Shown here one piece after another: positions 10,712 to 64,000 of a DNA stretch of 64,000 nucleotides; positions within the stretch are counted from its first letter, which is position 1, and each line of letters starts with the position of its first letter. The position numbers and the translations under genes are program-made. Below the pieces are notes generated by a model. It saw nothing but the letters and a program-made list of their open reading frames with translations, searched no databases and was not told the origin of the DNA. This DNA is from Jaapia argillacea MUCL 33604 (Eukaryota > Basidiomycota > Agaricomycetes > Jaapiales > Jaapiaceae): positions 404,445 to 468,444 of the forward strand of contig KL197732.1 in the NCBI GenBank assembly GCA_000697665.1, read 5' to 3'.

Positions 10712-10920
10712 GCCAGCGATGGAGGCTAGTGGTCTGTGCGTGTTGTTCACGAAATTGGCGCACGACGATTTTGGGTGCCAGCTGCCGGACCGCCTTGCCG
10801 CCCGCCATCAAAAGTGGAACTTGTTTCGCAGTCCACCAACTGGTTTCCCCACACCCTCATGGCTTCTGAGGTGCAAAAGTTCAGACAACTACTAGTATTT
10901 CATCGTCAACAGGGTACATA

Positions 10921-11356
10921 CTAAGTAATAACGGAATGAGAACCATAGTCCGCATATTTGTTAACATAGAACTCCGTAAATGCATCCAACGAGTACGAGA
11001 AATGTACATCTAGAGGCTTCCAAGAACCGCGAAAGACTAGAAGAAGATGGACAGCACGAACGATGCAATCTACAAGCATGAATCAGACCAACTGCCCTCT
11101 TGCCACCCTCCATCTCCGGTTTAACCACCCGCATACCGGTGACTTCGTGAGGTGCATCTCCCTCCAGCAGAAACCACTCAACCAATGTGAATGGATAACA
11201 CATATCGTCGTGAGTGAACGAGAGGAAGGCCATCAAGCGGCCAACTAGCATACTCCGCATACCATCGCCATTGGCATCTTTCTCGATGAGAACCCTATCA
11301 CAACGTTCATACTCGTTTCGCCACGAGGGGTTGTCTAACTTCCGATGTAACCTCAT
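10921..11356 (-). mobile_element. C-terminal fragment of a Plavaka-like DNA transposon ORF
   Basis: The minus strand carries a block familiar from the C-termini of agaricomycete transposon ORFs: AFLSFTHDDMCYPFTLVEWF, ..GMRVVKPEMEGGKR, then (after one frameshift near 11,080) LVDCIVRAVHLLLVF and HFSYSLDAFTEFYVNKYADY, stopping at 10,921. I place it with Plavaka-type (CACTA-like) elements from memory; that family name is less certain than the match itself. No transposase core or terminal repeats are visible, so only the tail is present. Its left edge runs straight into a duplicated SIN3 copy at about 11,357. Confidence 0.55.
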
Positions 11357-18186: not shown

Positions 18187-18980
18187 TCAGAAATAAACAC
18201 AGGAGGGTTCGGACGTACATTTGAATTTGAAATTAAGGAATATCCGGTTCATCAAAAACTGTATACTGACAAGGACCAGGGAACTGAGCGCGTACGTTCC
18301 ATTCAACGGCCGCTGTCCACCTCCTTGCGAGATTGGATGATGCCTCGGGTCTGCGATCGGGGTCGAGGATTTGATAGGTACAGTGGTCGTCCTGGTCGTT
18401 TGCTGTGAGTTACTGGCGGACGAGGGACGCAACAAGCAGCGGTTTTGGATTCGCTATGTCGTCCTTCGCAGCCTCGACTGGTGTGGACACCGAGCCAGGT
18501 TGAAGCACTTCCAGGTTTGATGATGATGGTTTGGCACAGACCCGAGTTTGAGTGAGGATGTTGGCCATGACGGTCGTACCAGCGGAGGAAACTGTCGTGG
18601 TCTGTGCGCGCATGATCGCACAACTGGCGTTTTCCCAAGCCAAGGCGGGTTGGGTTTGGATGCGTCTCGTTGTCTTCCTCCGGTTCCATTCGATTGGATC
18701 CCCAACCAGTGTGTACCTGAAAACCAAAGAGCCCCCGAGAAAGACACAATAAGCTCACTACAGGTCTACGGAGAAAGGAAAGCTCACCTCAGCAGAGTAC
18801 AAGAACGCTCGAAATCCCGCAATCCACCCAATCGCTCCCCGCTAAACGAATTATCCGGGGGCGAATAACTTGGAGATATAAGTGAGTGTAAAGAGGTCGT
18901 GTGAGTTGGGAGTGACAGTGCGATGTTCAGGGAGTTCCGACCCAGGGCTGGGAGAGCGGAGAGGTCCGGCAATGGTGTGG
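18187..18980 (-). pseudogene. SIN3 5' fragment (N-terminus and eroded PAH1)
   Basis: The minus strand carries TVMANILTQTRV (compare [12 protein letters not shown] of SIN3), a linker with STPIADPRHH, and an eroded PAH1 start (PLNGTYALSSL..). An upstream block at about 18,784-18,972 (GERLGGLRDFERSCTLLR) recurs at about 27,970-28,030, so this copy and the 26-28 kb copy share an ancestor. Several frame breaks are present. Confidence 0.55.
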
Positions 18981-19059
18981 AGAAGGTCGGTGGTCCCCAG
19001 AGCGTTGGCCCTGTCTGAACGAGTGGAACAGATTATTGGGATGTCAGCGAGGGATCAGA

Positions 19060-19540
19060 AGCAAAGAATTAGTTGTGCCAGACGAAGAAGAGAGGCTTAT
19101 AGAGGCCCAATCAACGGGACTCGGCCGATAAGTCGCAATCCTACCGTCGATCCAAACCAGCGACAAAGACACCAACTCACCTCATCGAACGGTTTTTGCC
19201 CAGCTACATAATATCTCCAGAAATTTCTTGTACGCATCGGGGTCTTCCGCGAGGAACCTCGCCTTTATCTTCTGAACATATTGCAATGCAGGCTCGAGGT
19301 CGAGAGAGCTCTGCCCAACGCGTGTGATGTCTGGGGGTCCTTGGATACGTCCAACTTCTGATGCCCCGGGACCCATACGTGCAAGTTGTCCTCGCTGGTC
19401 AACGGAGTCACGACGATGAGGCAATGACGAGTCATTAGCTGTGTGTTTGGGGCGCTCAGCTGACATTCTCGTGAACCAAGTCCCAGCGTGGGTGTAGGCA
19501 TGAACTGCGCCTTGACTTCTCTGTCGAGCTCGAGTTCCAT
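19060..19540 (-). pseudogene. SIN3 PAH2 fragment
   Basis: The minus strand carries [18 protein letters not shown] and [12 protein letters not shown], matching the first half of SIN3 PAH2 and its linker ([16 protein letters not shown]). Part of the parent's long PAH2 intron is at about 19,070-19,120. It ends head-to-head with the GTPase copy at 19,794. Confidence 0.7.
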
Positions 19541-19793: not shown

Positions 19794-21794
19794 ATGAGCA
19801 GTTCAGATCTTCCATCTCAAACCGCAGAGATCATCGAGGAATGCTCTCGGTAAGATCTCCAATCATGGACACTCGTGTACCTCTTGAACATTCCACGATG
19901 ATTGGCCCAGTTTTCGCATCTTGGTGATCGGAACGGTGAGTGGGGGTCTCTTTGGCAGGTCGTGATGTGGGAACTGATAAGTTCACAGACCGGAGTCGGG
20001 AAGTCGACTCTGATCAATCGCACCTTCAAGGTCAATTTAGCGGTAAGATATTCTAGTCCCTCACATTAGTTCATCAACCTTACATGTTATTCAACCAGAA
20101 TGTCTCTGAACATGGAGCTGGTAAATCAAACATCGAAGATGAAATTACGTTTCCCGAAAACCCTTTGTTCGTCCTCCATGATTCTCAAGGTCTCGAGCCC
20201 GGCGAGGTCGAAAACTTGAACACGATAAAGGATTTCGTCAAGCGCCGGATGGCCGAGCCTAAGATTAAGGACAGACTCCATGCAATCTGGTGAATCTTAC
20301 CGAGTGCCCAGCATTTTTCTTAATAACAACTGTCTTACAGGCTCTGTATTGCGGTTCCCCGGTCAGGTGGGAGGTTATTCGAGACTGGAACGGAGGAGTT
20401 GCTACGCCTCGGGCAGGATGCGTGTGAGTCAAACATCGTGTCTGCGCTGGTGTCAGTGCTAATTGCTCAGTCCGTCGCAGTGCCGATTGTCATCGTGTTC
20501 ACCAAGTTCGACATGCTTCTCCTTCAGCAGCGCAACCAGCTAAGGGGCAAACTTCCCAAGGAACAGATAGCCCCTGCGGCTGAGAAGGAGGGTGAACGTT
20601 TTTTCCAGGACCATTGTAAAGGCCCCTTGGCCCGTCTTGCTCCACACACGTGCTGCGTGAAAGTTTCTCGTGAGTTTTGACAGCCTGGGCTACTCGTTTC
20701 CGCCGATTTGGTTTGCTGTCGTCTCCCATTTTAGAAAACGATGCGCCTTCGTTGCTCTGGTTAGTCAATGTCACCTATGACGTCGTCACACGCCATGTCG
20801 AGGGGGATGTCTGGATCCTTTGGGCTATGGTACAACGAGTCAGTGTCCCCCTGAAGCTCGAGGCATCCGTCGCGTACGTGATCAACCCAATTCCTTTGTA
20901 CGATTATTCCTCACCCCCCACTCCACTCTTCACAGTGTTGGGATGAAACGTGAGTTATCACTGTCCACCTTCGGCTCATGTTCATGGATATCACCTCCGA
21001 CAGGATATTGGCAAGGTATTTGTGCGAAGGCAATAGCAGGCCAAAAAGGCTTCAAGGCCTGCCTCGACGCAGTCCATACCGACATGGTCTCTGTATGGAA
21101 TTTCCACGATCCGGAGAAAGTATGTTTCCTCCTTTCTCCTATGGTTGCATCTAATCATAACTTTGTCCGTAGCTTCTTTCAGGCGATGAGTTCAAGCAAA
21201 TGGTCTTAACACTCATTGAGAGACTGGCTCCCGATAGGGTCACCACCACATCAGCGTAAGCCGGCGATCTGTATCGTCTCGTGATGACCGACACTCACTC
21301 GTCAATTTGTAGTAACTTGACAACAACCAATACGATAACCTCCATCTTCCATGCGATATCTACCATCGCTGGGCCCGTGGTAGGCATCGTCGGTTTGTCT
21401 GTGACATTCATCAAGTGGCTTCATGACACCTACCAAATGACGTGCGTTTTTCTCGTCTCGGTTATCTTGTCCTCCCTGTATTCATAATTGCCCTAGTCCC
21501 GAAACCCTGAGATGTCAGATGGCGTATATCGTCGACCTCACCGCTATCCTTGAACATCTGCTTCTCGTTATGTTGGCCAAACGTTCTGAGCCTCTCGTAT
21601 TCGACTACGTTGAGCTTGCCTTTGAGTCATACAGGGAGTCTCCAGCGCTGTCGGCTGTCCATCGAGACATCTGCCAATACACTGCACGACCTGATCTTAT
21701 GCAACTTATAGATGCGGGGAATGCGGAGAAGGAGACCAGCCGTCTTGTCCGACACTACTGTGGCACAAGTATCTCACCCTCTGGATCTCCGTAG
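19794..21794 (+). CDS. AIG1/HSR1-like P-loop GTPase, copy 2, multi-exon
   Basis: Close paralog of the gene at 13,153 with the same exon plan. Start MSSSDLPSQTAEIIEECSR at 19,794; P-loop GTTGVGKSTLI across an intron; SNIEDEITFPENPLFVLHDS with G3 HDSQGLE; G4 VFTKFD (about 20,498-20,515); then QRNQLRGKLPKEQIAPAAEK. The helical part holds ACLDAVHTDMVSVWNFHDPE, the hydrophobic STIAGPVVGIVGLSVTFIKW, and MAYIVDLTAILEHLLLVMLA. It stops at 21,792-21,794. The frame looks intact through the predicted introns. Function is unknown; GTP binding is inferred from G1, G3 and G4. Confidence 0.75.
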
Positions 21795-23763: not shown

Positions 23764-25762
23764 ATGAGCGGTTCAGATCTTCCATCTCAAGTCGCGGAGA
23801 TCATCGAGGAGTGCTCCCCGTAAGATCTTCAGTCATGGCACCATGTACCTCTTGAACATGTCATGCTTGCTGGCATAGATTTCGCATTTTAGTGATTGGA
23901 ACGGTGAGGGCTCTTTCGTCGTTCGTTATGTGGCGTCTGACGACTTCGCAGACTGGAGTCGGGAAGTCGACCCTGATCAATTACACCTTCAAGGTTGAAC
24001 ATGCAGTAAGATATCCTCGTTCATTGAATGAGTGGCATCAACCTCATGTAATTTGCACCAGAATGTGTCTCATCTTGGAGCTGGTAAATCGAACATCGAC
24101 GATGAAATTACGTTTCTGGAAAATCCTTTGTTCATCCTCCACGATTCTCAAGGTCTCGAGTCTGGCGAGGTCGACAACCTGAACAAGATAAAGGATTTTG
24201 TTAAACGTCGGATGGCCGAGCGTAAGGTTAAGGACAGACTCCATGCTGTCTGGTGAGTCCTCCCCAGTGCCCGACAGCTTCTCGATAACTATTTTGCAGG
24301 CTTTGTATTGAGGTTCCCCGCGCGGGTGGGCGGTTATTCGAAACTGGGACCGAGGAGTTACTACAGCTCGCGAGGGACGAGCAGCGTGAGCCATCACTAC
24401 TGTCCACTAAACCGGTTCCATTGCTGATTTCTGGAATTGCCCCAGTTCCCATTGTTGTTGTGTTCACTAAGTTCGACATGCTTCTCCTTCAGGAGCGTAA
24501 TAAATTGAGAGGTAAACTTCCCAAGGAAGAGATAGCACCGGCTGCTGAGAAGCAAGGCGAGCGGTTTTATGAAGAGCGTTGTGTAAAGCCTCTGGCTGGT
24601 CTTGCAGGAAACACGTGTTGTGTGAAGGTTTCTTGTGCGTTTCGGCAGCCCCATCTCCCTGCTTCCGCCGTTCCAGCTAATCCTTTTCTCGCATTTCAGA
24701 TAACGATTACACTTCATTAATACACTTGGTCGAAGTCACGTCCCGCCTTGTTCTAAGCCACGGTGAGGAGGATGTGTGTGTTGTTTGGGCCATTGCTCAG
24801 CGAGTGAGTGCTGGTTTGAAACTGAAAGCCTCTGTCACGTGCGTATCCTGCATTTGGTATTTGGCTGTTCCTTTGATACTGACCAGTTTTTCGCGATCAG
24901 TGTTGGCATGAAAAGTGAGGGATATGCCACGGAGCTTGAGATCGCAAATTAATGTCCTGCTTCGTTAGGATACTGGAAGGGTGTTTCGCTGAAAGAAACA
25001 TCTTGTGAAAATGGATTCCAAGCATGCCTTGATGCCATCCATACCGACATGGTCTCTGTTTGGAACTTCAATGACCCCGTTGACGTAAGCACCCACACCC
25101 ACTCCTCCACTCCACGACCTCAGCAAAGTTCTTCGTAGTTGCTTTCCGGGAAAGAATTCAAAGATATGATTTTGCACCTTATTGAAGAATTAGGTCCGAC
25201 CAAACGAACCACCGACCCTGGGTATGCTGGTATTCATACATAGGGAACTGAGACATTCACGGATTCTTGCAGTGATGACCTGACAACCACCAATACCCTA
25301 GAACCCATTGCACAAGCCGTTCTCCTAATTGGAGACCACGTGGCATCTGCAATCTGTCCATCAATCACTTTCGTCAAATGGCTCCTCAATACATGCGACC
25401 TGACGTGCGTATTCCCTAAATTCTTGTCGTCATATTTGGCTCAATCATACCCCAGCTCTGACACGTTGAAGTGCCAAATGGCATACATCGTCGACCTCAT
25501 CGCCATCCTCGAGCGGGTTCTCCTACTCATGCTGGCTAAGCCCCCGCAATCTATTAGCTTGACAGAAATCAAAGAAGCTTTCGGTGCATATAATGGGTCC
25601 TCAATTCAGACAAATATTCACAAGGGCATTCGTCGGTACGTTGAGGAGACTGATGCGGTACACCAGCTTGATGCTGGGAACACCGAGAAGGAGACAAGTC
25701 GCTTGGTTAGAGAGTACTGCGGTGCTAGTATCCTGACAGATCTGAAGCTCAACAGAGGCTGA
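23764..25762 (+). CDS. AIG1/HSR1-like P-loop GTPase, copy 3, multi-exon
   Basis: Third and most diverged copy of the 13,153 family. Start MSGSDLPSQVAEIIEECSP at 23,764; P-loop GTTGVGKSTLI across an intron; G3 HDSQGLE; G4 VFTKFD (about 24,459-24,476); QERNKLRGKLPKEEIAPAAE; then LVEVTSRLVLSHGEEDVCVV, KDMILHLIEELGP and MAYIVDLIAILERVLLLMLA. The end is ETSRLVREYCGASILTDLKL, stopping at about 25,760. Compared with copies 1 and 2, the C-terminal third has many replacements and a different tail, which suggests an older split. The frame appears open across the introns. Confidence 0.72.
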
Positions 25763-30630: not shown

Positions 30631-32524
30631 ACCAACGCTCGTCGATTGGAAGTTCTCCACTTGTAATCGTGCTACGGCACCCATAGCCATTCCCATCTCC
30701 CAAACCCTCCCGTGTTCCTTTCGAACCAACCCTTCCCCTGATATCATCCCATACCCCGATGAACACCCCATCATCTCGGTTTTCCCTGATACGTTCTTCG
30801 TTATTGTGAGCTCGAGACCTATTGAAGAGCGAATCGACAGAGAAGGTTGACGAATTCATGGAAAGTTCGCCCTGGTGTGGGAGGCCTTCCGACATTAAGG
30901 AAAGAGTGCGATCAAAAAGCGGCGTTGGGAGAGTGGACTGACTTCGGACTCAGGTGTTGAATATGGGTCCGAGGGCATAAGGTGTTGATGACGGGAACAG
31001 GGCTTGCCATGAACAGACGGATTTGTAGCCACGGCAAATTCGGCGCCGATGTTACTTGGTAAGCCGGGCTGTGTCGCGGCGTTGTCTCCTTCAGCTTAAA
31101 GGAGTCATGTCAGCGCGAGCGAACCTCTCGACAGTCCAAGAGATATAGAACCGTAGAACCGTCGAAACTCACCTTTGAAGAGCCATGTGTATTCGCCCCA
31201 ACACACACTCCCTTTCGTCCACAGACTTCAGGCCAAGACGCTTGACCGGCCTCCACGTTCATCGACATCACTTCCCACATTCTTCAATCCTCGACAGACC
31301 GATGTGTTTGGGATGATCAGCTTGTGCGATCATAGGCAAGCCAGCCAGATGCACCTGTACGCATGAATTTTGTGTCGTGATGAAAGAACGGTGGAGTCCT
31401 GATGCTGCAGGTACGAATTAACATCCATCTAGTGCCCCATCCGATATGCGAAGGTGAAGTCATGGGCTCGAGATAAGACTACTGCCGAGAGCAGGGACGA
31501 GAGGAGTTGCAGCGTCGACGACGAGCGGACCCTCATCCGATTGTGCCGTTGTCCAAAAGGTGTGGCTACGGTAGCGAGTCTGGCACCGTGAGTTTGCATG
31601 CCGTAATCGATTCCGTAGCCTACGGACAGGGAAAGTGTCGAAGCCTTGGATTAGTTGGGTGACGGCGGAACAGGGCTTGAGACTCGTTCGGTTGCGCCTG
31701 GTGTGGCAATGCTACCTATCGGATGAACGACTCGGCCGTCATTGTAAGAAAGCAGTCACAAGGAGGTCCAGACACACATTGGCGCTGTAACGTCTTCCTG
31801 TTGTCCGACATAAACAGCTTCAACCTGAACACGACGGTTACATTCGACGACTGGTCACCTCCAGCCCCTCCCTTTTTAGATTCAGATTGGGGTGCGAGTC
31901 CGCGAATGGGTTAGAGAATCGCGTAGGCGGGGTTGTTGTGGGCATCCGAACATCCATATTTGATTGAGAGGACCCTACAGGCAGAGCTATTGGATCAGGT
32001 GCGCTGTCTTTCGCAGCCCTGGACTTGTGTTGGCTCCAACTTTAAAGAGTCGGGCAGGGGTACATCTGGCTTCGTTGATCGAGGATGGGATGTTAGGTGA
32101 AAGAATTTTGGGAGTGGAGGAGAGGCAAATGACAGCTCACCGGGAACAGGTCGCAATCGGATCCGAACGTTGATACCGAGACGACTAGAGAGAGCATTGG
32201 CTCAGTCGGAGCTATGGTGAAATGTGTGGTGTGTGATGATTTGGAACGTCAAATAGCCTCACTGTAGTTGCAATCTGAGATGGTTGGAAAGTCGAAGTGG
32301 GAGAAGCCTTCAGCATAGACGAGAACCGATGGTGGAGGCCAAGGATGTGAGCCCAGAGGCAGCCACGAATGATTTGCGCGTCGACAGTGCAAAAGGAGGA
32401 GACAAACGTTTCGCTGAGATATCCCCATCGCCAATGTGGCAATGCCTAGTGCACACCCAAGCAGGCGCTCGTCGTTATCGATCGTCGAGTCATCTCTCGC
32501 AACTCTCACCAGGACCATCATCTC
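30630..32524 (-). pseudogene. SIN3-derived debris, duplicated block
   Basis: The minus strand carries scattered SIN3-like pieces: a PAH3-flank stretch near 30,650-30,780 and a PAH1 second-half stretch near 31,590-31,760. The block from about 31,000 to 32,800 is repeated in the same order at about 39,200-40,850, including the start of the GTPase that follows. No open frame survives. Confidence 0.55.
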
Positions 32525-32770
32525 ATGGACGACCGAGCCCTTCGACTCAGGTATAGCCAATTTCGTGTTCTGGTGAAGGGCAAAGCAAACGCAGGAAAGA
32601 CGACGATTCTCCAAAAGGTCTGCAACACGACAGATCAGCCAAAGATCTACAACTCCAAGGGCGAGAAGGTAAGTGCCGGATTGGACTTCAATGCGAGGAG
32701 TGATCCCTGATTGCGCATCATCTGCCTACCAGATTGACCTCTCAGCCGTTGCACCAAGCAGGGAGGTATG
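32525..32770 (+). pseudogene. Truncated 5' end of subfamily-2 GTPase
   Basis: The first two exons of a paralog of the 40,595 gene: MDDRALRLRYSQFRVLVKGK, P-loop GKANAGKTT, then TILQKVCNTTDQPKIYNSKG, a 60-nt-class intron, and IDLSAVAPSRE. After the second donor the similarity ends near 32,770 and the G3/G4 region is absent. Confidence 0.75.
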
Positions 32771-38559: not shown

Positions 38560-40594
38560 ATGCTGATGCGTTGTCTCGTTGGGAGGATTCCTGTTAGCGC
38601 AGACGAACCTCTCGATATATAGAAGCAGTCAAAACTCACCTCTTGAAGTGCCATCCTGATTCGCCCCAACACCACTCATCCTCCTTCATAAACCGCTCTT
38701 CAGCCTGACCAAGACATTCGACCGACCTCAATCTCGATTAACGTCAATTGCCATATGCTTCAACCCTCGCCATACCGATTGATTTAGGGTGATCAAGTTG
38801 AGTGATAGTGGGCGAGATGTGGCTGGAGGCAAGAATTATGTATCGTCTTGAAGGACGAGGGTGCAGTCCTGATCTTGCAGGTACTGATGAATGTTCGACA
38901 CAAGGCCGAACCCAGAGCGGTTCCCATCCAAACACGACCCTAATCATTTCGAACCAACACATCTCTCTCATCCCATATCCCGATGTCCACCGCATCATTT
39001 CGGTTTCCCCAGAAACATTATTACTCTTGCGCGATCGAGACCGATTGTCGCCTTGATTTAGGGAGCTATTCGACATCAAGTCTTGAAGGAAAGAGTTCAG
39101 ATGAGATGCGACGGTGGGGGACGAGATGTTGACCGACTTCGGATTTTGGTGTCGAATCGGGGATCAAGGGTGTGAGGTGTTGTCGATGATCGGATCGGGG
39201 ATACCATCAAACGTGTTTGTAGGTACGGGGCATTCGATACCGATATTGGGTGAGCCCGGCGACGTCGCGGCGTTGTCTCCTTCAGTTGGGAGGACTCCTA
39301 TCAGCGCATACGAACCTCTCGACAGTCTAAGAGGCATAGGGCCTATCGGGGCTTACCTGTGAAATGCCATCCTTATTCGCCCCAACACCACTCTCCCTCT
39401 CCTTCATTAAACCCTCTTCAGCCTGGCCAAGACATTCGACCAACCTCAATGTCGATTGACGTCACATGTCACATTCTTCAAACCTCGCCATACGGATTTG
39501 CATGAGGTGATCAATGTGTGTGATGGTGGAGAACTTAGGCGGGACATGGCTGGAAACAAGGATTTTGTGTCATTGTGAAGAACAAGGGTGAAGTCCTGAT
39601 GTCGGAGGTATGGTCGACAGGCGAAAGTGAAATTCTGGGCTTCAGCGAAACACCTGCGGCCACCGCCAAGAGCCGGAACAAGAGAAGTTGCAGCGAGGAT
39701 GAGGAGTGGACCGTTTATCGATTATGTCGTTGTCCACAACGCGTGGTTACAGTGGTGAACCTGGCAGTTTGGGCTTGTATGCCGAGATCCATTCGTAAAT
39801 TATCAAAGCCTCTGGTGAGTCGGGTGACCGTACGCGGAGTGTGTAGAAAGTTACCGCGTGGAAAAGGGTTTGATATTCGTACGGTTGCACCTGGAGTGTC
39901 GACGCTACCAATTGGATGAACCATTCGACCATCGTTACAAGAAAGAAGGGACTGGGAGGTCCGGACGTACAAAGGGCGCTCAAAATCCTTCTCGTCCTCG
40001 AAAACTACTCGTAACCGAGTGGGACGGGTGCATCCAACCGCCCATCACTTCCTGTCCCTCTTGCTTGTGACTTTCGGCCAGGATTCGAGTCCGAAATCAG
40101 ATTAGCGAACCCGGTAGAGGGACGCCAGTATCTGGGCATTCGTGTTTGATTCAATTGAGAGAAAACGGGGCAGGATGGAGTATTGGATGCGATATTTTCA
40201 TGAATTTGCCTGAGCTTTATCTGGGTTTGTTGACTGAGGACGGGATGAAACTTTGGAATGGATGAGCGGCAAATATGGCTCCCCAGAAACCAGTCGCCAT
40301 CTCCTCCAGAGACGACGAGAAAGAGCATTGGCTCAGTCGGAGACATGGAGAAACGTGCGGTGTGAGTTGCAACCCCAATAGTGCTGCTGCGATCTGAGGA
40401 AAGACAAACCGGGAGAAGTGTTCAGTATAAATGAGAACGACGATGGGACTAGGGATGCGAGCCGTACAGTCGACTTGTGAAGCCGTAACGCCGAGATGCC
40501 GCCAATGTGACAAGGGGAGAGACACACGCTGGCACTCATCGTTGTTATCGATCCCCCACTCATCCCTCGGAGCTCTGACCAGCACCAGCATACC
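38560..40594 (-). pseudogene. SIN3-derived debris, duplicated block upstream of the 40.6-kb GTPase
   Basis: Two tandem copies of the same debris: 38,560-39,100 and 39,115-40,000. They carry repeated short blocks (for example CGGCGTTGTCTCCTTCAG) and end in a stretch with PAH1-like remains (about 39,720-39,960). The right half matches 31,000-32,520. No intact gene. 40,200-40,594 is the duplicated GTPase 5' flank. Confidence 0.55.
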
Positions 40595-43500
40595 ATGGAC
40601 GACCAAACCCTTCGACTCAGGCAGAACTATCGCCGATTCCGCGTTCTGGTGATGGGCAAGGCGAATGCTGGGAAAACTACGATTCTACAGAAAGTCTGCA
40701 ACACGACCGATCAGCCAACGATCTTGAACGCACGAGGACAGAAAGTGAGTGGCAGATTGGACTTGGCGAGGAGGATCCCTGATCACACATCATCGGCCTG
40801 CCAGATTGGCCTCTCAGTTGTTGTGCCAAGCGAGGAGGTATGTAAGGTGTTAGTTCGATCGTTCAATCTGAGTGACTACCAAGTAACAGCGAGGTGTTCA
40901 CAACATCGAGAATGAAATGATATTTGCAGCCAATCCTCGATATGTCTTTCACGATTCCCGTGGTTTTGAATGTGGATCCGCTGAGGAATTCAAGATCGTA
41001 CAAGATTTCATTGAGCAGCGAGGGAGGGCGAGAAACTTGCGAGAACAGTTGCACGCTATTTGGTGTGCCATCAATCTTCCACCTAATGTCCTGGTATTGA
41101 TTAACTAGGTGTAAAGGTATTGTCTCCCGGCTGACAATGCCAGCCGTCTCTTGACTGGAGCAGAGGCAAGGTTTTTCCAGGAGTGTGATCCTGGGGCAGG
41201 TTTGTATCATTTGTTTTTGAGGAAAAATATATATGAACACCTTGCAGTTCCAGTGATTGCAATATACACAAAATTTGAGGACTTTGTGCTACAGACTCAG
41301 GAGTTCCTTATGAGTAGGGGATTGGATGAAGAGGATGCCTTTGAACAGGCATCTGTAACTGCATCTGATCATTTCTCCGAGGAATATGCAAGTATATTTG
41401 ATAGAATGAATTTTCCACCTTCCAGAGATGTAAAACTTCAAAGAATGTATGGTTTATTGTTCTATATGTTTTGTTATTGATTCCTGTTTATTTAGATATG
41501 AATGAGCCAGATACAAAATGCAATGAATTACTGGAGAAAACTGCAGATGCACTTGGGGATGATACATTAAGAAAGCTGTTTGTGTGCATCCAGCAGAATC
41601 AACTGGATTTATGTGCAAAATGGGGAGTGAAAAGGTAAGGCCCTTGAGTATTATTGGTCTTAACTGATGGAAGACACAGAGCTTGTGAGCTGGTACACAA
41701 ATGTTGTAGGGATCAAGAAAAATTAGATATGGAGGCATGGGTTGGAACAGTATTGCTTTGGTATCCATGGGATGTGAGTCATTTGTAAACTTTGGACCCA
41801 GTCCCTTATGCACTCATGTTCTCTGCTCTATGGGTTTCATTGATAGGTGGTGAGTGCTTTGTGCACATTCACCCCAGTCTTTTAGCCAGCTTATATTCTC
41901 TGCTTTCTGGCTTCCATCCACAGGATGTGAGTAGATTCTCCATTTTGGCCCCAGTCTCTTAGTCAGCTCATGTTCTCTGCTCCATGGATTCCATCCACAG
42001 GATGTGAGTATTTTGTCAACTTTGGGCCAGTCTCCCAGCTAGCTCATATTCTCTGCTCCCCGGATTTCATTGATAGTTTGTGAGTGCTTTGTCTATTGTG
42101 GCCCCAGTCTCTTACCTAGCTCATGTTCTCTGCTTTTTGGCTTCCACAGCTAGTGAGTGCATTATTCACTTTGAACCCAGTTTTTCAGCTAGCTTATGCT
42201 CTCTGCTCCCTGGCTTCTAGCCACAGCCTGTGAGTGCTTTGTTTACTTTGGTCCCAGTCTCTTACCCAGCTCATGCTCTCTGCTCCCTGGATTCTATCCA
42301 CAGAATGTAAGCACCATGTCCACTTTGGCCCCATTTTCTCAGCCCTCATATTCTCTGTTCTCTGGCTTCCATACATAGCCAGTGAGTGGATTGTCTACTT
42401 TGGCCCCAGTCTCTCAGCCAGCTCATGCTCTCTGCTTCATGGCTTCCATCCACAGCCAGTGAGTGCTTTGTGCACTTTGATCCCAGTTTCTTAGTCAGCT
42501 CATGTTCTCTGCCCCCTTGCTTCCATCCATAGCAAGTGGGTGCTTTGTCCACTTTAGCCCCAATCTCTCAGCCAGCTCATGTTCTCTGCTCCCTGGCTTC
42601 TATCCACAGGAAGTGAGTGGTTTGCCACTTGGGCCTCAATCTCTCAGCCAGCTCATGTTCTCTGCTCTGTGGGTTTCATCAATAGTCTGTGAGCATTTTG
42701 TCCACTTTTGTCCCAGTTTCTCAGCCAGCTCATGCTCTCTGCTCCCTGGTTTTATTGATAGTTTGTGAGTGCTTTGTCCACCTTGACCCCAGTCTCTCAG
42801 CCAGTTCATGTTCTCTGCTCTCTGGGTTTCATCCACAGGAAGTGAGTGCTTTTTCACTTTGGCCCCAGTCTCTCAGCCAGCTCATGTTCTCTGCTTCCTG
42901 CCTTTCATCCACAGCTGGTGAGTTCTTTGTCTAGCTTGGCTCCAGTCTCTCAGCCTGCTCATGTTCTCTGCTCCCTGGATTATATCCCCAGGAAGTGAGT
43001 GCTTTGTTGACTTTGGCCCCAGTCTCTCAGCCAGCTCATTTCATTTGCTCTCTGGATTCCATCTATAGGATGTGAGTACTTTGTCCACTTTGGCTTCAGT
43101 CTCTTAGTACCTGAACTTTTCTCTCACAATCATATCAGTTTGTATGTACCACCATTCTTCCCATTGATCTCTCCACTCAACCCCCATCCGGTGCCCCATT
43201 CATCTGACCAGAATGTAAGTTACTGCCATAGTTCTCTTTCCAGTATATATATACTGATATGACTTGCTTTCATATATATAGAGATGCTATCTACCTTTTC
43301 TAAACAATTTTTGTACCTGGCTTCGTGCTCAGGTATGCTCTGGTATCACTTACTTTCTAACCTAATAGCTCCATCTTTTAGACTGCTGAACTCTCAATTT
43401 ACCAACAAGCAATATATGCTATTTCTTGTATGTAGTGACTGTATGGTTTTATGCATATTTAACCTTCTTCTAGCCAGTGCCATGATTGCAAAGCCTTCCT

Positions 43501-43756
43501 TTCTTTCTCATGGCCAAATAGCCTGGGATGTACGGTTTCAGGAAGCACAGCATGATGTCAAGGTATTAGCAATTCTAGCCAAGCTTTTGGATGCCATAAA
43601 AAGGATAGAGATGGATCCCCACTTGTTTTGGGCTGATGAAGAAGGCTGTCAGAGAGTCTTGCATGCTCTCATCACTGATCATAGGCTTGGTATGTATTTA
43701 ACTTAACTTCTCTGGTTTATCACTTTTTGAACTAGTTTCTAGCACTTGAGAATTGA
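40595..43756 (+). CDS. Subfamily-2 P-loop GTPase with an array of single-codon microexons
   Basis: Predicted GTP-binding protein, role unknown. Exon 1 40,595-40,744 (G1 GKANAGKTT); exon 2 40,805-40,837; exon 3 40,890-41,062 (G3 FHDSRGFE); exon 4 41,117-41,199 (YCLPADNASRLLTGAEARFF); exon 5 41,248-41,451 (G4-like YTKFED); exon 6 41,496-41,634; exon 7 41,680-41,773 (ending VGTVLLWYPWD). Then come 18 three-base exons (41,847-43,214), and exons 43,282-43,332, 43,382-43,427, 43,474-43,689 (WDVRFQEAQHDVKVLAILAK) and 43,743-43,756 (stop). Every ordinary intron is 44-67 nt, GT-AG, and keeps one frame from ATG to stop. No break is needed. From 41,117 onward the gene is almost free of CpG, unlike its 5' part. 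Exon chain inferred by eye; not tested by RNA. Confidence 0.75.
41774..43214 (+). repeat. Tandem array of related introns separated by 3-nt exons
   Basis: Seventeen consecutive units of 70-74 nt, each with a GTGAGT-type donor (variants GTAAGC, GTGGGT, GTGAGC), a conserved core near CAGTCTCTCAGCCAGCTCA with a branch-like CTCAT, a pyrimidine-rich CTCTGCTCCCTGG stretch, and a CACAG or ATAG acceptor. Between each acceptor and the next donor lie exactly three bases. An eighteenth intron (43,072-43,211, 140 nt) starts like a repeat unit and then diverges. The triplets vary widely (V, D, D, F, L, P, N, P, P, Q, E, S, F, E, L, E, D, N), while splice sites on either side stay fixed. All are phase 0 and none is a stop. 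Confidence 0.9.
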
Positions 43757-44744: not shown

Positions 44745-45989
44745 TTAGAAGCACCTTAGCAACTAGTACTCAGGCTAAAATGTTGAGGCTGTAGAGGATG
44801 ATGATGGAGAGCAAACCAGTTGAAGGATACAACTAAAGCACTCTATTGCTCAAGTGGACAAGCTACTGAATACATAGTAGCTAGGCGTCCTTATATACTA
44901 AGAGGACAATGGATATTTGGACAATGAACTAAGGACAATAGCAAGTGAGACAATGTAATTAGACAATGGCAAATGAGATAAGGTTTAGAGGACAATGAGG
45001 AATTAAACAATAGAAACAAGAACATTGATGAGGCTGTGTGAGATGAGTCATTGTGTGCTAAAAATAGTATAAGGTCTGAAACAAAAGATAAATCATGTTA
45101 AGTATCATAGACAGGGGAAATGATATGAAAACAAATGGAATCCAATAAACGAGAGTAAAATACATACAATGTTAAGAATCACACTGCACTACGCCTATTT
45201 TCATTCTTTTTGTTATTCGACACTCCTCACGGATATCTGATCCTTCCTTATATGGGATCATCAAGCATCACAATTGTATTCCTCCAGAACACAAGGGACA
45301 GGTTCATATCCCTTCAACATCCCTCCGATACATGCTCGCTCCTGCACATACAACCTCTAGTGCATTATCCTCCATCTATCATCACTCTAAATTCCTTGTC
45401 ACCTCGTCACCTCACCTTCCAGTACGACCCAGGCCATCAACTATGGACCCCTATGTCTCTGACTCACAGATCAGACCATTGACTGTGGACTACGAACTAT
45501 GGACCCCTAACTACGGACTCCTATCCTTCTGACTCACTTCGACTCATGCTTACTACTGTCTTACTACTGTCTTACTCATCGCTACTACAGACTACGGACT
45601 GTGCTTCATCATAGTATATATACTTCCCTGTATTCGCTAGTATTCCCCATCTTGTTCACTTTGTCAATATAGATCGTTATCTCTATTTGCATCGTCCCAA
45701 CTTGATCCCTGTCTGATCATCTGTCTGGAAGCCTCTGATAGTTCCTCATCCTCTTGTCGTTCTACTCTGTGGCTGTAGCCTAGGTATCATCAGAGAAGTA
45801 TCAAGTCTTTCATTGTATACTTCGTTGAAGTAATGATCTTAACACCTCATCCTCTCGTCGTTCTACTCTGTGGCTGTAGCCTAGGTATCATCAGAGAAGT
45901 ATCAAGTCTTTCATCGTATACTTTGTTGAAGTAACGATCTTAACATACAATACAAATGAAAAGCTACAAGTCTGAAGGTGTTCACAACA
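44745..45989 (-). mobile_element. 3' LTR of Gypsy element B (family Y), split by a solo LTR
   Basis: Starts TGTTAGAAG and ends CACAACA, followed by a CATCCCCTCTC stretch that is the reverse complement of a polypurine tract. About 465 bp once the inserted LTR is excluded. Same family as the LTR at 61,731-62,165, but clearly diverged, mostly where the other copy has CpG. Old. Confidence 0.75.
45170..45945 (+). mobile_element. Solo LTR, family X, inserted into the family Y LTR
   Basis: TGTTAAG..TTAACA ends flanked by the 5-bp target duplication TACAA on both sides. It holds a TATA-like stretch near 45,615 and a direct duplication of about 100 bp at its right end (units at about 45,746-45,845 and 45,846-45,945). 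Solo LTR formed by recombination of a full element. Confidence 0.8.
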
Positions 45990-47215: not shown

Positions 47216-47261
47216 ATTGGACTGATTGATGATGTTACCATGCTCATCTCAGTGGTAGTGG

Positions 47262-47266
47262 GGCTG
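47262..47266. repeat. Target-site duplication of element A (left)
   Basis: GGCTG immediately before the 5' LTR, matched by GGCTG at 55,279-55,283 after the 3' LTR. Five bases is typical of Ty3/Gypsy integration. Confidence 0.85.
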
Positions 47267-47569
47267 TGTCACGTTCTTTTTGCTTTTGATCACCTGATCT
47301 GTAGAACATTCCTTACTATTCCGACCTGTAGCATTAACGACTCTTTTGACTCAGTATGACGCCTTATTGCACCATCGGACTATTATTAGACCAACCATGT
47401 AGTATATAGGCTTGTACCACTTTAATGCAAACGCCAGTCTTGAGCTGGTCTATTCCAAACCAGCCACACCTGTGTGTCATCGGTCGACCTCATTACTCCT
47501 TGCTGCTACTCGCACTCCTCATCCGGCGCTGCTGCCAGTCACATCCCTGGTTGTTGTTTGTTGCTGACA
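47267..47569 (+). repeat. 5' LTR of element A
   Basis: 303 bp, starting TGTCACG and ending GCTGACA, with a TATA-like GTAGTATATAGG near 47,400. Almost identical to the 3' LTR. Confidence 0.9.
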
Positions 47570-49298: not shown

Positions 49299-49347
49299 TT
49301 AGGAAGCGAAAGTAGTTTAAATTACATAAAACATTTAAACCACCACC

Positions 49348-50760
49348 TTGAATCCAGACAGAGGACTTATCTGTTTCGGCTCTCTCCATAACTTCTGGAA
49401 TAGGAATGGAAGAGATGTTACATTCCCTCCCTTTAACGACGACAATTCACGAGACTGTGAAGTCACACCCTGTCCAAATCGATACACTTACACAGGGGAC
49501 AACACCTACGACTACTCGCAAGAAGGAGACGAAGGATTCCAACCAGTTACCCCAGAACACACCTTTTGGGAGATCCGTAGATATCGAGAACCACTACAAA
49601 TCCCAGTCGAATCACCCGAAGCTCCCACACGATTAGCACCACCAGGAGCTGTCACACCTCCATCACGAACCACTTCACCCACACGGTTATCCCAACTACC
49701 ACCCATTGGCGTAACCCCAGTACAACTTCCCCAAATACAACCACCCGTCATGGCAGCCGTACAAATGACCGATGCGCAATTCAACACACTTCTTGCAAGC
49801 CTTAAACCAGGAGGTGCAAAGGTGGAAAAAGTTGTCGCACCAGGAACCTTTGAAGGCGATAAGAAGGAATACGAAGATTGGCGCAACAATCTTGATTCTT
49901 ACCTCGATGCCAATTCCAACTTCTACAATGATGACAAGGCTAAGTTTCTCTATGCCATGTCATTGCTCAGAGGACCCACGGCGTCATGGAAGAAACAGCT
50001 TCGGGCATTTCGAAAGCGACATGAGACAGAACTCACCACCGAGAAGGCTCGAGTCAACCCAGATCAAACACGAATCGCCCAATTGGAAGGGTTGATCTCA
50101 TGGACCTACTACACTCGGGAAATGAACAAGAGGTTTGGAGAAGTCAATAAAGAGGAGAAAGCACGTCTTCGTATGATGGAAATGAAGCAAGGAACGCGAA
50201 CCGCCGACGAATACATCACCGACTATAACCGATTAATGCTCGATGTGAATCTCACCTATCCTGATGAAGTTCATATCGACAACCTCAAATGAAACGCTAG
50301 TAGGGAAATCATCCGCCAAATAGAAACAAGCAAGGATGCACCTCCCACTAGTTATGAGGATTATGCTCGACTTATCATTCGAATCGATGAAGCAACGCGA
50401 CAGTTCAATACGCAACATCGTCAGGTTCAGGTTCAACTCTCCGCCCAGGCCCACCCATTCGTCCCTCGTCCTCAAACCGTATTCATCCAACGTGGACAAC
50501 CACCGTGCCCCTTCATCCCTCAACAAAACCACTCGCCATCAGGACCCCCATCATCACAATCTGGATCTGGCCAGAATACGCAAAACTGAAGAACCGGCAC
50601 AGGCACGACATTCAGAGGCAGTGGTCAGCCAATGGACTTAAGTCGTGCACGTGCCTCGGCAGTTTGTTACAACTGTCAACAAAAAGGCCACTTTGTGTGA
50701 GACTGCACACAACCAAAACGTCCCATCATGGAACGTTCTCGGGAAATGTTTGTGCAGTAG
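49348..50760 (+). CDS. gag of element A
   Basis: Capsid-type region: a Pro-rich N-terminal part, then APGTFEGDKKEYEDWRNNLD (about 49,840) and a typical Ty3/Gypsy gag helical core to about 50,290. A zinc-knuckle region follows near 50,660-50,715. The gene is broken. Confidence 0.75.
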
Positions 50761-50969
50761 ACACCAGAGGAACTTGCGGAAATCCGCAACCTTCTGGACT
50801 TACTAAATCAAAAAACAAACATCGAAGAAATAGATTACGAAAACACACAAAAACAAGAGCAAACAGATGAAGTAGCAGTAGAGTATGTAGAAATGGAAGA
50901 TGACCCTAATTATTTACCTGATGACCCCTCTTCTTTTCACAACAGTCGATAGTTAATGATGCCGATTAT

Positions 50970-53900
50970 CGACAGGACATGCTTTTTTCAGGTTCTAGAT
51001 ACTCACCGTTAAATTATTCTGATGCATTACATACGGACAGTACCATAGAATTAGATACGGGTACCACGGTGAATTTAGTCCCTGACATTCCTACAGGTAT
51101 CAGACTTGATAAAGCCTCGCTAAAACAACTGCACACCAAAACTGCTGAACAGTTTTGGTTCTCCTTGAAGGATCGCAGCCAAAAAGATCAACTCGCTATG
51201 CTTCAAAGATGGACTCCCAGAGCCAGGTGCTCTGAAGTCGCATCACCACAGATCGTAAAAGAGTTGATGTCTTCATCTGATCCTGTGGAAGCTGTGGCTG
51301 AGTTGTGAGAACCTCGCAAGTATTGTTGGATTCATAAAACCACCAGGAATCAGGGATTCGAATTGGATGTTGACGTACGAATCAAGAACCTCCAGACTCA
51401 GGAAGTCTTCTTGGAGAAAGCCCTGATTGATTCAGGATGTACCTTCTCAGCTATCGACGCTGGATACATGGATAAGCTTGGACTGGACACGATTGAATTT
51501 GCCAGGCCCGCAGCTGTATACAACACTGATGGGACTCGTAATTCGACTTCCATCACTCGCTATTGCCAGGTCGAGTTGGAAATGTTTGGTCACACGGAAT
51601 CCATATCTCTGTGTGTTACGATGCTGGCACGCCACAATATTTTTATTGGTTATGATTGGTTGACCAAACACAACCCGGATATTAACTGGGTTGATAACAC
51701 GCTCGTCTTTAGTTGCTGCCCCTCTGCTTGTGGGGTTCAGCCGCACCTCCTTCGTTGTGCCGATGTTGGTCATTCACTTGGACTGGATGACGTTGATTTC
51801 CTTGACGATGACGGTGGTGATCTGGAATCTCACCTTAGGAGGGGAGATAGAGTCTTTGTAACTCATTTCGAACCCGCTCGCGCACGAGCTACTGGCACGT
51901 TATCAACACAATTAGCCATCGATGCAGAGTCAAAACGCGAAAGGAAGCATTGGACCGAGATTGTATCTCCACAATTCCATGACTTTATAGATGTTTCACC
52001 AAGGAGGATTTTGAGAATACCCCTGACTCGCGGATCTGGGATCACGCCATAGAATTGAAACCAGGTTCGACACCTACGGACTGTAAATTATACCCACTAT
52101 CGCCAAGCGAACAAAAGGAATTGGACGAATTCCTTGAGGAAAACCTGAAAACTGGACGTATCAGACCTTCCAAATCGCCTATGGCATCACCCTTCTTCTT
52201 TGTCAAGAAAAAGGACGGACAATTGCAACCAGTACAGGATTACCGCAAACTCAACAAGATGACGATCAAGAATTGTTATCCCCTTCCACTCATTGGAGAA
52301 TTGTTTGATAAGCTAAAGAATGCCAAGTACTTCACGAAGCTTGATGTTTGCTGGGGATATAATAACATCCGCATCAAGGAAGGAGACGAATGGAAGGCCG
52401 CCTTTAGAACAAATCGAGGATTGTTCAAACCATTGGTTATGTTCTTCGGGTTAACCAATTCCCCTGCCACGTTTCAAACCATGATGAACAAAATCTTTCG
52501 TGAATTAATCAATGATGGCCACGTCATCATCTATATGGACGACATATTAATATTCACCGAAACCCTGGAGGATAATCGTCGAGTCACCAGACAAGTTCTG
52601 GAAGTACTACAACAACATAAGTTATACCTCAAACCAGAGAAGTGTGAATTTGAGAAGGAAAATGTGGAATACTTGGGACATATTGTGTCTGCAGGACAAA
52701 TCTCCCTGGACCCAGTCAAAGTTCAAGGAGTACTCAGATGGCCTTTGCCGAAAAATAAGCGAGACGTCCAATCCTTCCTCGGATTCTGTAATTTCTATCG
52801 ACGATTTATCAAAGGGTTTAGTGAGATCGCACGACCCCTAAATGATCTCACTGGCAAGACCGACTTTCACTGGACTGACAGTCAACAACAAGCTTTTGAA
52901 AAGCTCAAAGCCGCGATCACATCTACACCTGTCCTTCATCACCCCACTAACGCCGACAAATATCGTGTGGAAACGGATGCTTCCAACTATTCCGTGGGAG
53001 CAGTGCTCTCACAACATCAAGAAGGAAAATGGGTTCCAATCGCCTTCATGTCCAAATCGATGAACAACGCTGAATGAAATTACGAAATTTACGACAAAGA
53101 AATGCTCGCGATAATGAAAGCTCTCAGGGAATGGCGTCACTATCTTCTCGGAGCGGAACAAGAGTTTGAGGTTCTTACCGACCATCAGAATCTCACGTAC
53201 TTCTGCTCACCTCAGAAACTCAATCAAAGACAAGCACGTTGGTACACGGAATTGGCCGAATATCATTTCACACTTCAGCATAAAGCCGGCAAGGAAAATA
53301 CGAAAGCCAACTTGTTGTCTCATCGTCAAGACCATAGCGATGGACGAGAAAATGATAACAGCGACATCACCATGCTCAAGCCTCATTGGTTCCAACATTG
53401 GATGAGATCCAATGAGGTTGTCTTTGAAGGAAGCGACACGGCCATCTTGGGAATGATAAAACACGCTAGAAGGAAAACAGATAAATCAGTGGAGATTGCT
53501 CTTCAAACAAAGAAGCCAGGCTTCGAGGAGCATGACGGAATAATAGAATGGAAAGATCGGATATACGTTCCGAAAGACCTGACAATTCGCGAAGAGATAA
53601 TCCGACATCATCATGACGTACCCGAAGCAGGACATCCTGGTGCCGCCAAAACTCAACAATTGATCACACGAGACTATTGGTGGCCCACGATACAATACAA
53701 TGTCAGGAAGTATGTCGAAGGATGTGTCGATTGTCAACGCGCGAAACCCCGTTGAGGTGCTACACACACTCCTTTACACCCAAATCAAATACCGGATTTG
53801 CCTGGAGAAATAATCAGTATCGACATGATTGGTCCATTACCAATTTCCAAAGGATGTGACGCTCTCCTTGTCATAACCGATCACCTAGCCAAAAATATAC

Positions 53901-54949
53901 GACTCCTTCCCATCACCACAGAGTTATCAGCACCAGGAGTCGCCCGACTCTTTCGTGATCGATGGTGGTGCGAATTCGGATACCCCCAAAAAGTCGTCAG
54001 TGATCGAGGAACTCAATTCATGTCTAACTTCATGAAAGAGCTCCATAGCCTTATGGGAATCAGTATGAACCCGTCAACTGCCTATCATCCTCAGACCAAT
54101 GGTCAAACAGAACGTGTAAATCAAGAGGTTGAACTATATCTCCACATCTTCATTAACCATCATCAGGATGACTGGTATGATTGGATCTCCCAGGCCAAAT
54201 TCGCATACAACAACAAACCACACTCCACTACGGGTTACTCTCCTTTTTATTTATTATACAGCAGACATCTGTGGACCAGAGTCAACTATCGAAGGAAAGC
54301 AAACAATGAGTCTGTTCAAGACTTCCACAATCGCATGCGCAAAACTTGGGACGACGCCAAAGCTGCAATGGCCAAAGCGCAAGAACAGATGAAACTCTAT
54401 TATGATTGCAAGAAGTCTGACTCTTACCATTTCAAGGTTGGCGACATGGTCTGGTTGGAAGCAATGAATATCACAACAGATCGTCCAATGAAGAAATTGG
54501 ATGACAAATGATACGGCCCTTTTAAAATCATAAAACAACATGGATCCGCCTATGAACTTGCCCTCCCCATCGAATGGAAGAAGCGTCGTATCCATCCAGT
54601 CTTCAATGAGGCTTACTTCTGTCCTTTCAAAAAAGGCGAATATAGTACTCAGAAGAAGCCTCCTCCTCCTCCTACGATTGTCAGTGACGGTTCAGAGCAA
54701 GAAATCGAAACTCTGATCCAATACCGTGAACATAACGGTAGTATCCAGTATATGGTCAAATGGAAAGGACAACCTTCTGGGGATAATCAATGGATGGATT
54801 GGAAGTTTGTAAAGGAGCAATGTGAGGATTTGATGAAGAAGTTCCACAGGGAACATCCGGCCTATAGACCGCCCGAGAAGCTGATCTTACGCTCTCTGCA
54901 AGTCCGTGCGCTGCCCCATGACATGTTGGACTATAATGACGATCCATGA
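50970..54949 (+). CDS. pol of element A: protease, reverse transcriptase, RNase H, integrase, chromodomain
   Basis: Aspartic protease with LIDSGCTFSAID (51,363-52,050). Reverse transcriptase 52,055-53,077 with FFVKKKDGQLQPVQDYRKLN and the catalytic IIYMDDILIF. RNase H about 52,960-53,320 with VETDASNYSVGAVLSQ. Integrase about 53,540-54,510 with the GHPGAAKTQ zinc region, ISIDMIGPLP, VSDRGTQFMS and a core Glu in NPSTAYHPQTNGQTERVNQE. C-terminal chromodomain about 54,700-54,830 (YMVKWKGQPSGDNQW). Broken in several places. Confidence 0.85.
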
Positions 54950-54975
54950 GGACATGGACCTTGGGAGGGGGGTAA

Positions 54976-55278
54976 TGTCACGTTCTTTTTGCTTTTGATC
55001 ACCTGATCCATAGAACATTCCTTACTATTCCGACCTGTAGCATTAACGACTCTTTTGACTCAGTATGACGCCTTATTGCACCATCGGACTATTATTAGAC
55101 CAACCATGTAGTATATAGGCTTGTACCACTTTAATGCAAACGCCAGTCTTGAGCTGGTCTATTCCAAACCAGCCACACCTGTGTGTCATCGGTCGACCTC
55201 ATTACTCCTTGCTGCTACTCGCACTCCTCATCCGGCGCTGCTGCCAGTCACATCCCTGGTTGTTGTTTGTTGCTGACA
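54976..55278 (+). repeat. 3' LTR of element A
   Basis: 303 bp, near-identical to 47,267-47,569. Preceded by a purine-rich tract and followed by the GGCTG target duplication. Confidence 0.9.
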
Positions 55279-63015: not shown

Positions 63016-64000
63016 TCATGGTGGAATGGACTTTTCCAGTTTAGCCAGATGTGCCTTTATTCGTTCTGGGTTTGGATGTTTGGTCATGTATTCTGGAAGA
63101 TTTGGGAGGCTTTCCATAGCAGCTCGTCTCGCTGCAATGTCTATCCAGAGCCTAGTCCATTCTTCCTCAGGTATCCTTAGTAACGCGAAGTTTGACAGGT
63201 TTTTCATATCTTCCCATGTATTCTCTGAGTCTGGGTATCCTTTCCATTGTACCAGGTATTTGACAGACTTTTTCCCATGTCTGGCATACTTTGATTTGAT
63301 GACTTCTTCTACTTCGAATTCCTCTTCTCCAGCGATCAAGTCGGGTACAGGTCGTGGGTAGTTTACTCTGTGTTCAGTGGTTTCTTTGTATGGGGTCAAT
63401 AGCCCTGTGTGGAAGACTGGGTGTATTCTCCATGTTTTGGGTAATTTGAGTCGGTAGGTTCCGGATCCAATGATTGTTTCTATTTCAAAGGGGCCATGTC
63501 GTTTGGGGGAGAGTTTGGCACTAGGGTATTCCGTTTTGACGTTTTTTCCTTCTAGCCAAACTGAATCTCCGACCTTGAATTTGGGTCCTTTTGTCCCATA
63601 TTTATCATGTTGGTTCTTCATTGCTTCGGCTGCCAGTTTAAGGCATGCTTCTGCTTCTTCTCTCGATTTCTTGAGCTCTTCCAGTCGTTGTTTGGCTGCT
63701 GGGATATTGGGCATGGGCCTGACGGATGGTTTAACCTTAGCTTGGTATCCGTGCATGAGTTTGAAAGGTGTTTTCTTGGTTGCGGAGTGTATGCATGTAT
63801 TGTGGGATAATTCTGCAGCAAAGAGGAGTGAGGGCCAATTGTTTTGCGCTCGGCCACAATAGGCTCAGAGGAATATTTCTAGTTCCTGGTTGACTCTTTC
63901 TGTGGCTCCATTGGTTTCTGGGTGGTATCCTGTGCTTAGGGCTGATTCGATGTCAAGTCGGTTGAATATGGCGCAAAGGACTTGGGATGTGAATTGGGGT
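63016..64000 (-). CDS. pol 3' part of element C: integrase C-terminus and chromodomain
   Basis: Minus strand, reading into the window from the right: an integrase core remnant near 63,870-63,960 (ALSTGYHPETNGATERVNQE), then 63,016-63,756 with KFKVGDSVWLEGKNVKTEYP, ..RHGPFEIETIIGSGTYRLKL and the chromodomain VKYLVQWKGYPDSENTWEDM. It ends just before the accessory ORF. Confidence 0.8.

Follow-up and report, generated by a model that had tools for sequence, protein, structure and literature searches.

Isolated exons of three nucleotides are joined into mRNA in the Drosophila genes homothorax and troponin T and in mouse Ncam (PMC7392893; PMC8042270). The passages concerned describe one such exon in each gene, whereas the locus presented here carries 19 predicted ones in succession, together with a repeated intron family. 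In plants, exons of a single nucleotide have been reported, as has a neighbouring pair of 5 nt and 12 nt in rice (PMC8831610), and human RPS24 possesses three neighbouring microexons (PMC11162997; PMC12686416). Very small exons thus follow one another in the rice pair and in RPS24, as they would here, but these accounts give two or three of them rather than 19. The micro-exon genes (MEGs) of Schistosoma carry very short exons, 10 to 20 of them, with lengths mostly divisible by three; the sizes quoted are 3–81 bp or from 6 bp upward, most being 15 bp, and the introns measure 0.1–5 kb (PMC10526429). Compared with the MEGs as outlined there, the exons of the present run would all be 3 bp long, and the introns are of about 73 bp and mostly related to one another.

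Introns can themselves multiply. Families of similar introns, the introner-like elements, have been amplified in fungal genes (PMC4457414; PMC9860276). As portrayed in these sources, such elements multiply across genes; the introns discussed here instead lie head to tail, three bases apart, and the window (the whole 64,000-nt stretch of Jaapia argillacea DNA that was analysed) contains no further copy. New introns can also be created by tandem copies that include an exon–intron joint (PMC4974935). The cases in that text involve two to four copies, in contrast to the roughly 17 found here with putative single-codon exons. In the repeat domains of fungal NLRs, concerted evolution keeps the repeats alike while certain codons are under diversifying selection (PMC4986451). 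The repeat treated in that excerpt is itself coding, whereas here one codon in each 77-bp repeat would be. Finally, P450 genes of the basidiomycete Phanerochaete resemble the present gene in combining very small exons (the shortest of 6 bp) with small introns, but no array is mentioned in the section concerned (PMC1184071). In the open-licence literature, a run of single-codon exons split by a repeated intron was not found among the matches listed.

The array lies within a gene whose predicted product carries an N-terminal P-loop, VLVMGKANAGKTT, which Arf, the best model in a Pfam search, matches weakly (E 5.3e-4, under the curated cut-off); other models are also weak, and the best PDB match reached an E of only 0.029, over residues 7–46. 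The family presumably resembles the G-domain proteins common in basidiomycetes, and the gene is referred to below as GTPase-like. Its ordinary exon boundaries are predictions, placed from splice signals and reading frame. The model runs without a stop over 410 codons, its introns are of the GT..AG type, and the eight introns outside the array span 44–75 nt. The features, all on the + strand, are as follows.

40595-43706, + strand: GTPase-like gene, predicted, with 10 ordinary coding exons and 19 three-base exons; 410 codons open
40595-40744, 40805-40837, 40890-41062, 41117-41199, 41248-41451, + strand: predicted ordinary coding exons 1-5
41496-41634, 41710-41773, 43282-43332, 43382-43427, 43474-43706 (stop included), + strand: predicted ordinary coding exons 6-10
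41774-43281, + strand: array of 20 putative introns of 67-74 nt with 19 three-base exons between them
41774-43107, + strand: tandem family part, with 17 whole introns and about the first 33-36 nt of intron 18
43108-43281, + strand: non-repetitive tail, with the rest of intron 18 and introns 19 and 20; architecture as in the family part
41847-41849, + strand: candidate microexon 1, GTG (V)
41924-41926, + strand: candidate microexon 2, GAT (D)
42001-42003, + strand: candidate microexon 3, GAT (D)
42077-42079, + strand: candidate microexon 4, TTT (F)
42150-42152, + strand: candidate microexon 5, CTA (L)
42227-42229, + strand: candidate microexon 6, CCT (P)
42304-42306, + strand: candidate microexon 7, AAT (N)
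42379-42381, + strand: candidate microexon 8, CCA (P)
42456-42458, + strand: candidate microexon 9, CCA (P)
42533-42535, + strand: candidate microexon 10, CAA (Q)
42610-42612, + strand: candidate microexon 11, GAA (E)
42686-42688, + strand: candidate microexon 12, TCT (S)
42762-42764, + strand: candidate microexon 13, TTT (F)
42839-42841, + strand: candidate microexon 14, GAA (E)
42915-42917, + strand: candidate microexon 15, CTG (L)
42992-42994, + strand: candidate microexon 16, GAA (E)
43069-43071, + strand: candidate microexon 17, GAT (D)
43139-43141, + strand: candidate microexon 18, TTT (F), at an AG-TTT-GTATGT site absent from the first list
43212-43214, + strand: candidate microexon 19, AAT (N), followed by a non-family intron of 67 nt

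Tandem Repeats Finder describes the repetitive part as a 77-bp unit in 17.5 copies (41772–43104); its right end is 43104 by this program and 43107 by eye. The tandem-family introns share a mean pairwise identity of 0.79. With microexons taken as exons of at most 30 nt bounded by an acceptor and a donor, all 19 of the 19 predicted triplets lie between AG and GTRNG at intron spacing. These consecutive symmetric exons would account for 19 of the 410 codons, the remainder residing in ordinary exons. Read in the order given above, from GTG to CAA and on from GAA to AAT, the triplets encode VDDFLPNPPQESFELEDFN, placed between WYPWD and RCYLPF.

The initial annotation had counted 18 consecutive three-base exons, and a strict scan with AG-NNN-GT[GA][AGC]G recovers all 18 of them (listed at 41845–43210), yet the count comes to 19. 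The strict pattern had left out GTATG, hence the AG-TTT-GTATGT site. This site falls inside what had been described as one longer unit; a stretch of 140 nt is indeed found at 43072–43211, but the TTT site splits it into introns of 67 and 70 nt. The peptide expected from full inclusion is in frame as proposed, with 19 residues instead of 18, while the upstream exon, formerly given as 41680–41773, runs from 41710 to 41773 instead. Both flanking exons (41710–41773 and 43282–43332) are in phase 0 at the array edges, as had been claimed, and the model stays open to the same extent whether or not the 19 codons are included. The overall observation of consecutive three-base exons is confirmed at the level of sequence, having been slightly understated at first.

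The pattern used for counting was widened to AG-NNN-GT[AG]NG, with a spacing of 45–130, after the TTT site had been noticed. It occurs at 62 sites on the + strand of the window, 19 of them in a single chain, and at 29 sites on the − strand; every other chain, on either strand, comprises at most two sites. Within the tail (43107–43281), two AG-NNN-GTRNG sites delimit introns of 67, 70, and 67 nt, an arrangement (introns all of 60–80 nt) matched by none of 20000 dinucleotide shuffles. In local alignments with the unit, the three parts of this tail (the rest of intron 18 and introns 19 and 20) do not rise above shuffles (p 0.12, 0.22, and 0.10, respectively). The lack of stop triplets had been rated as weak support, which agrees with an arithmetic chance of about 0.40 for 19 triplets. 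The constant three-base gap, also stressed previously, is present but is weak when taken alone: with 7 of the 17 family introns shorter than 74 nt, the expectation for the 51 triplet bases is no more than about 0.3 length changes. Frame by itself is not decisive for single-codon exons. By frame alone, 18 larger open phase-0 exons of 4–150 nt, leading from some AG to some GTRNG, can be drawn in the array; one of them, of 138 nt (43077–43214), starts at an AG within the GTGAG donor of intron 18. No phase-0 exon of more than 3 nt leads from an AG ending within 43078–43211 to the donor after 43214.

The splice signals of the array are conserved beyond the surrounding columns. Every one of the 17 family units retains both GT and AG; given that 22 of 74 columns are invariant, the chance that all four named columns would be so is 0.006, and conservation of the signal columns exceeds that of columns drawn at random (p 0.0025). 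Scored for a U1 match at intron positions 1–6, with G allowed at A positions, the donors of 17 of the 20 array introns reach 6/6 and those of the other three 5/6; the eight non-array introns of the gene score 3 to 6. A yUnAy motif, with its A 26–30 nt before the intron end, is present in all 17 family introns, the T and A being invariant in these branch-site columns, which were selected after the alignment was inspected. In introns 18, 19, and 20, the distance of the candidate branch sites varies. A search for RNA structure in the array introns yielded six weak pairs, none of them with changes on both sides, and a covariation term of −0.08.

As the initial annotation had proposed, the triplets vary while the splice sites stay fixed: mean pairwise identity is 0.33 for the triplets, compared with 0.76 for non-signal intron columns and 0.91 for signal columns. 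Of the 77 three-column blocks, none varies as much as the triplet (p 6.4e-4 in a comparison with random non-signal columns). Differences from the consensus affect 28 of 51 triplet bases vs. 147 of 1010 non-signal intron bases, and the ratio of transitions to transversions is 1:27 in the triplets vs. 91:56 in the non-signal intron columns (p 4e-9). A consensus A is kept in 98 of 100 cases in the introns; at the middle triplet position, it is present in 8 of 17. The intron differences (41774–43068) are mostly C to T (63 of 147), an excess that might reflect a mutation process directed at repeats or linked to methylation.

Alternatively, the splicing machinery might treat 41774–43281 as a single intron of 1.5 kb, or excise it in a small number of large steps, such that the triplets would be absent from the mRNA, a reading that we consider unlikely. 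Tandem repeats within introns are ordinary, skipping of the whole array leaves the frame intact, and a few larger exons can be drawn in the array to accommodate larger steps. One cited precedent is a fission-yeast gene with an intron spanning four tandem duplicates (PMC4974935). However, a single large intron predicts no constraint on GT and AG and no hypervariability of the triplets, and both predictions fail, as does the prediction of an equal substitution spectrum in triplets and introns. It also fails to explain why AG-NNN-GT recurs at intron spacing in the tail, which is not repetitive, and would far exceed the short introns of the rest of the gene. Neutral satellite drift was rejected as the main reading, the divergence being uneven over the unit, the splice sites constrained, and the spectra different. 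The description of the array as a decayed intronic satellite is disfavoured.

We give little credence to the idea that the triplets, though real codons, act as neutral spacers, beside which the introns merely look slower as most of their positions are constrained. Intron column rates are indeed unequal (variance 5.5 vs. 2.1 binomial), and column 62, among the nine most variable, approaches the variability of a triplet, with 9 differences in 17 and mostly transversions (1:8). Yet the nine columns together show 37 transitions and 23 transversions, a spectrum far from that of the triplets (p 9e-8). For the 17 family triplets, a common ancestor evolving under the intron spectrum gives a log-likelihood of −106.0, or −70.5 at best when the rate is left free, and even the latter stays below the −64.0 obtained by treating the triplets as independent codons with the position-specific composition of the gene. 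Neutral descent under the intron spectrum is thus the worse fit. In simulations (64 ancestors × 150), total differences never exceeded 20, compared with the 28 observed. Considered as a set, the 19 triplets fit best to the in-frame codon-position composition of the gene's 3′ exons (−71.1); the other frames (−82.1 and −80.7), the array intron composition (−81.5), and their own pooled composition (−75.7) fit more poorly, and none of 20000 within-triplet base permutations fitted the codon composition as well. When 46 overlapping 19-codon stretches of the 3′ exons, which are also the fitting set, were put through this codon-composition test, 22 reached 0.05. The fit could partly reflect a GAT-like ancestor, because the upstream exon ends in the codon GAT, which is likewise the consensus of the triplets; GAT is also the position consensus of the gene, and its descendants would show a similar codon fit.

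Returning to the earlier proposal of real exons whose triplets obey other rules than the introns, this view is supported by the column statistics, the substitution spectrum, the frame, and the non-repetitive tail. The structure, the frame, the preserved splice signals, and the exceptional evolution of the triplets appear directly in the DNA. The 19 triplets are quite probably genuine single-codon exons of the GTPase-like gene, spliced sequentially and adding VDDFLPNPPQESFELEDFN or in-frame subsets of it.

Fungal short introns are recognised as introns, and intron definition would accordingly act on each 67–74-nt intron of the array. Exons of three bases are too small for the factors of their two adjoining splice sites to bind simultaneously; removal of the introns should therefore be sequential, as a chain of recursive steps in which each triplet, once joined to the growing exon, would bring the next donor directly behind it. 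Such recursive, sequential splicing is plausible; we infer it, like the use of the triplets in mRNA, from the arrangement of the sites. Splicing many single-codon exons in succession places heavy demands on the mechanism, which counts against genuine exons. As every triplet is a whole phase-0 codon, any subset of inclusions would keep the frame. Full inclusion would insert the complete peptide, and skipping of subsets might yield mRNAs encoding a loop of variable length and content. We further infer that the peptide may serve as a surface loop. A more speculative and rather doubtful extension is that the array acts as a generator of diversity, one residue at a time, with free in-phase inclusion, selected divergent codons, and like introns producing a hypervariable GTPase loop.

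Two origins can be envisaged for the array, and both require the triplets to be real codons. Given slightly less than an even chance is the tandem amplification of an intron together with one codon (GAT), after which short-tract exchange would keep the introns alike and selection on the loop would diversify the codons. The head-to-tail order and the partial unit at the end are consistent with such an amplification, and blastn with the 17 family introns returned no copy in the rest of the window. The nine exon bases before the upstream GAT/GTGAGT junction resemble the unit end, with a mean of 6/9; 2 of 1167 exon 9-mers (itself counted) resemble it as closely, as do 0.12% of the 9-mers that lie in the window but away from the gene region. 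Columns 1–3 bp apart are clearly linked (r2 0.128 vs. 0.062 null), the linkage falling to the null level beyond 8, and there is a weak correlation between the triplets and the final 20 bases of the intron (Mantel r 0.19, p 0.02). Together, these results suggest short exchanges (conversion tracts) between units. On the other hand, amplification demands very strong selection to account for the disparity between triplet and intron differences (28/51 vs. 147/1010), and neighbouring units are no closer than distant ones (p 0.68). The similarity of the upstream exon to the unit ends at about 12 bases (p 0.70 without them), its local alignment with the unit gives p 0.18, and the triplets are uncorrelated with the intron as a whole (Mantel p 0.26). 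Neighbouring triplets are not alike (p 0.21), and the 5′ and 3′ intron halves show no co-variation (Mantel p 0.40).

Less probable, in our estimation, is the repeated insertion of an introner-like element between existing codons, by which the triplets would be older than the introns. The triplets do act as independent codons of the GTPase-like gene, the introns are star-like in their relationships (identities at lags 1–8 all 0.78–0.80), and introns 19, 20, and the second part of 18 share the family architecture without significant family similarity. However, we know of no element that inserts every three bases in phase 0, the 64-kb window holds no further copy of the intron, and the likeness of the upstream exon end to the unit end also speaks against insertion. 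By inspection, the triplets on either side of an intron mostly differ, with no sign of a 3-bp duplication. The downstream exon (43282–43332) shares nine bases, CCTGGCTTC, with an array unit (p 0.03), a likeness that possibly arose by chance, being the only one among nine stretches aligned to the unit with p <0.05.

If the 19 single-codon exons are genuine, they would represent, as far as is known, an extreme of spliceosomal gene splitting and would offer a test of sequential recursive splicing through exons that leave no room for two splice complexes. Within one repeat, the intron and its single codon would then evolve under visibly different rules, which bears on the multiplication of introns, and the protein could be varied by single residues. 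Such structures would probably escape both gene-prediction programs and read mappers, so more of them may exist.

Relatives of the GTPase-like protein were sought in viral and prokaryote collections. Among viral contigs, a 136-aa query gave five pattern-matching stretches and no relative; among prokaryote genome contigs, a 282-aa query gave 34 stretches, with a single bacterial match over residues 2–34 (44% identity). Both searches rest on exact short peptides, so distant relatives would escape, and the lack of a homolog says little because the collections searched consisted of viral and prokaryote contigs. A 21-base exact pattern from the array unit had no match in viral contigs. Closer to the gene, a second copy of its first-exon region lies at 32525–32671 (74.5% identical over 51 residues), enclosed by a DNA similarity of 68.7% between 32064–32770 and 40219–40842; tblastn found no remainder of the gene near this copy. 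More distant GTPase-like stretches occur at 13330–14042, 20120–20614, and 24083–24576, with 27–37% identity in pieces, and none of the relatives within the window aligns over the linker region.

Elsewhere in the window, matches to Sin3, PAH, retrotransposon gag, reverse transcriptase, integrase, and chromodomain models occur among 10 of the 108 listed reading frames; like the short GT-AG introns of the GTPase-like gene, they are in keeping with a fungal origin. Several like copies of one stretch are present on the − strand at 9398–12600 and 18300–19500, with DNA identity of up to 88%; the one scanned copy, at 9398–10807 (− strand), matches a PAH (Sin3-type) model. Retroelement pieces, which we take to be of the Ty3/gypsy type, comprise gag, reverse transcriptase, and integrase at 49339–54508 (+ strand) and a chromodomain piece at 63019–63864 (− strand). 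The + strand retroelement is flanked by a 317-bp pair (47253–47569 and 54962–55278, 97.8% identical) that may constitute its long terminal repeats. In addition, a 101-bp direct repeat occupies 45744–45945 in two copies with 96% matches.
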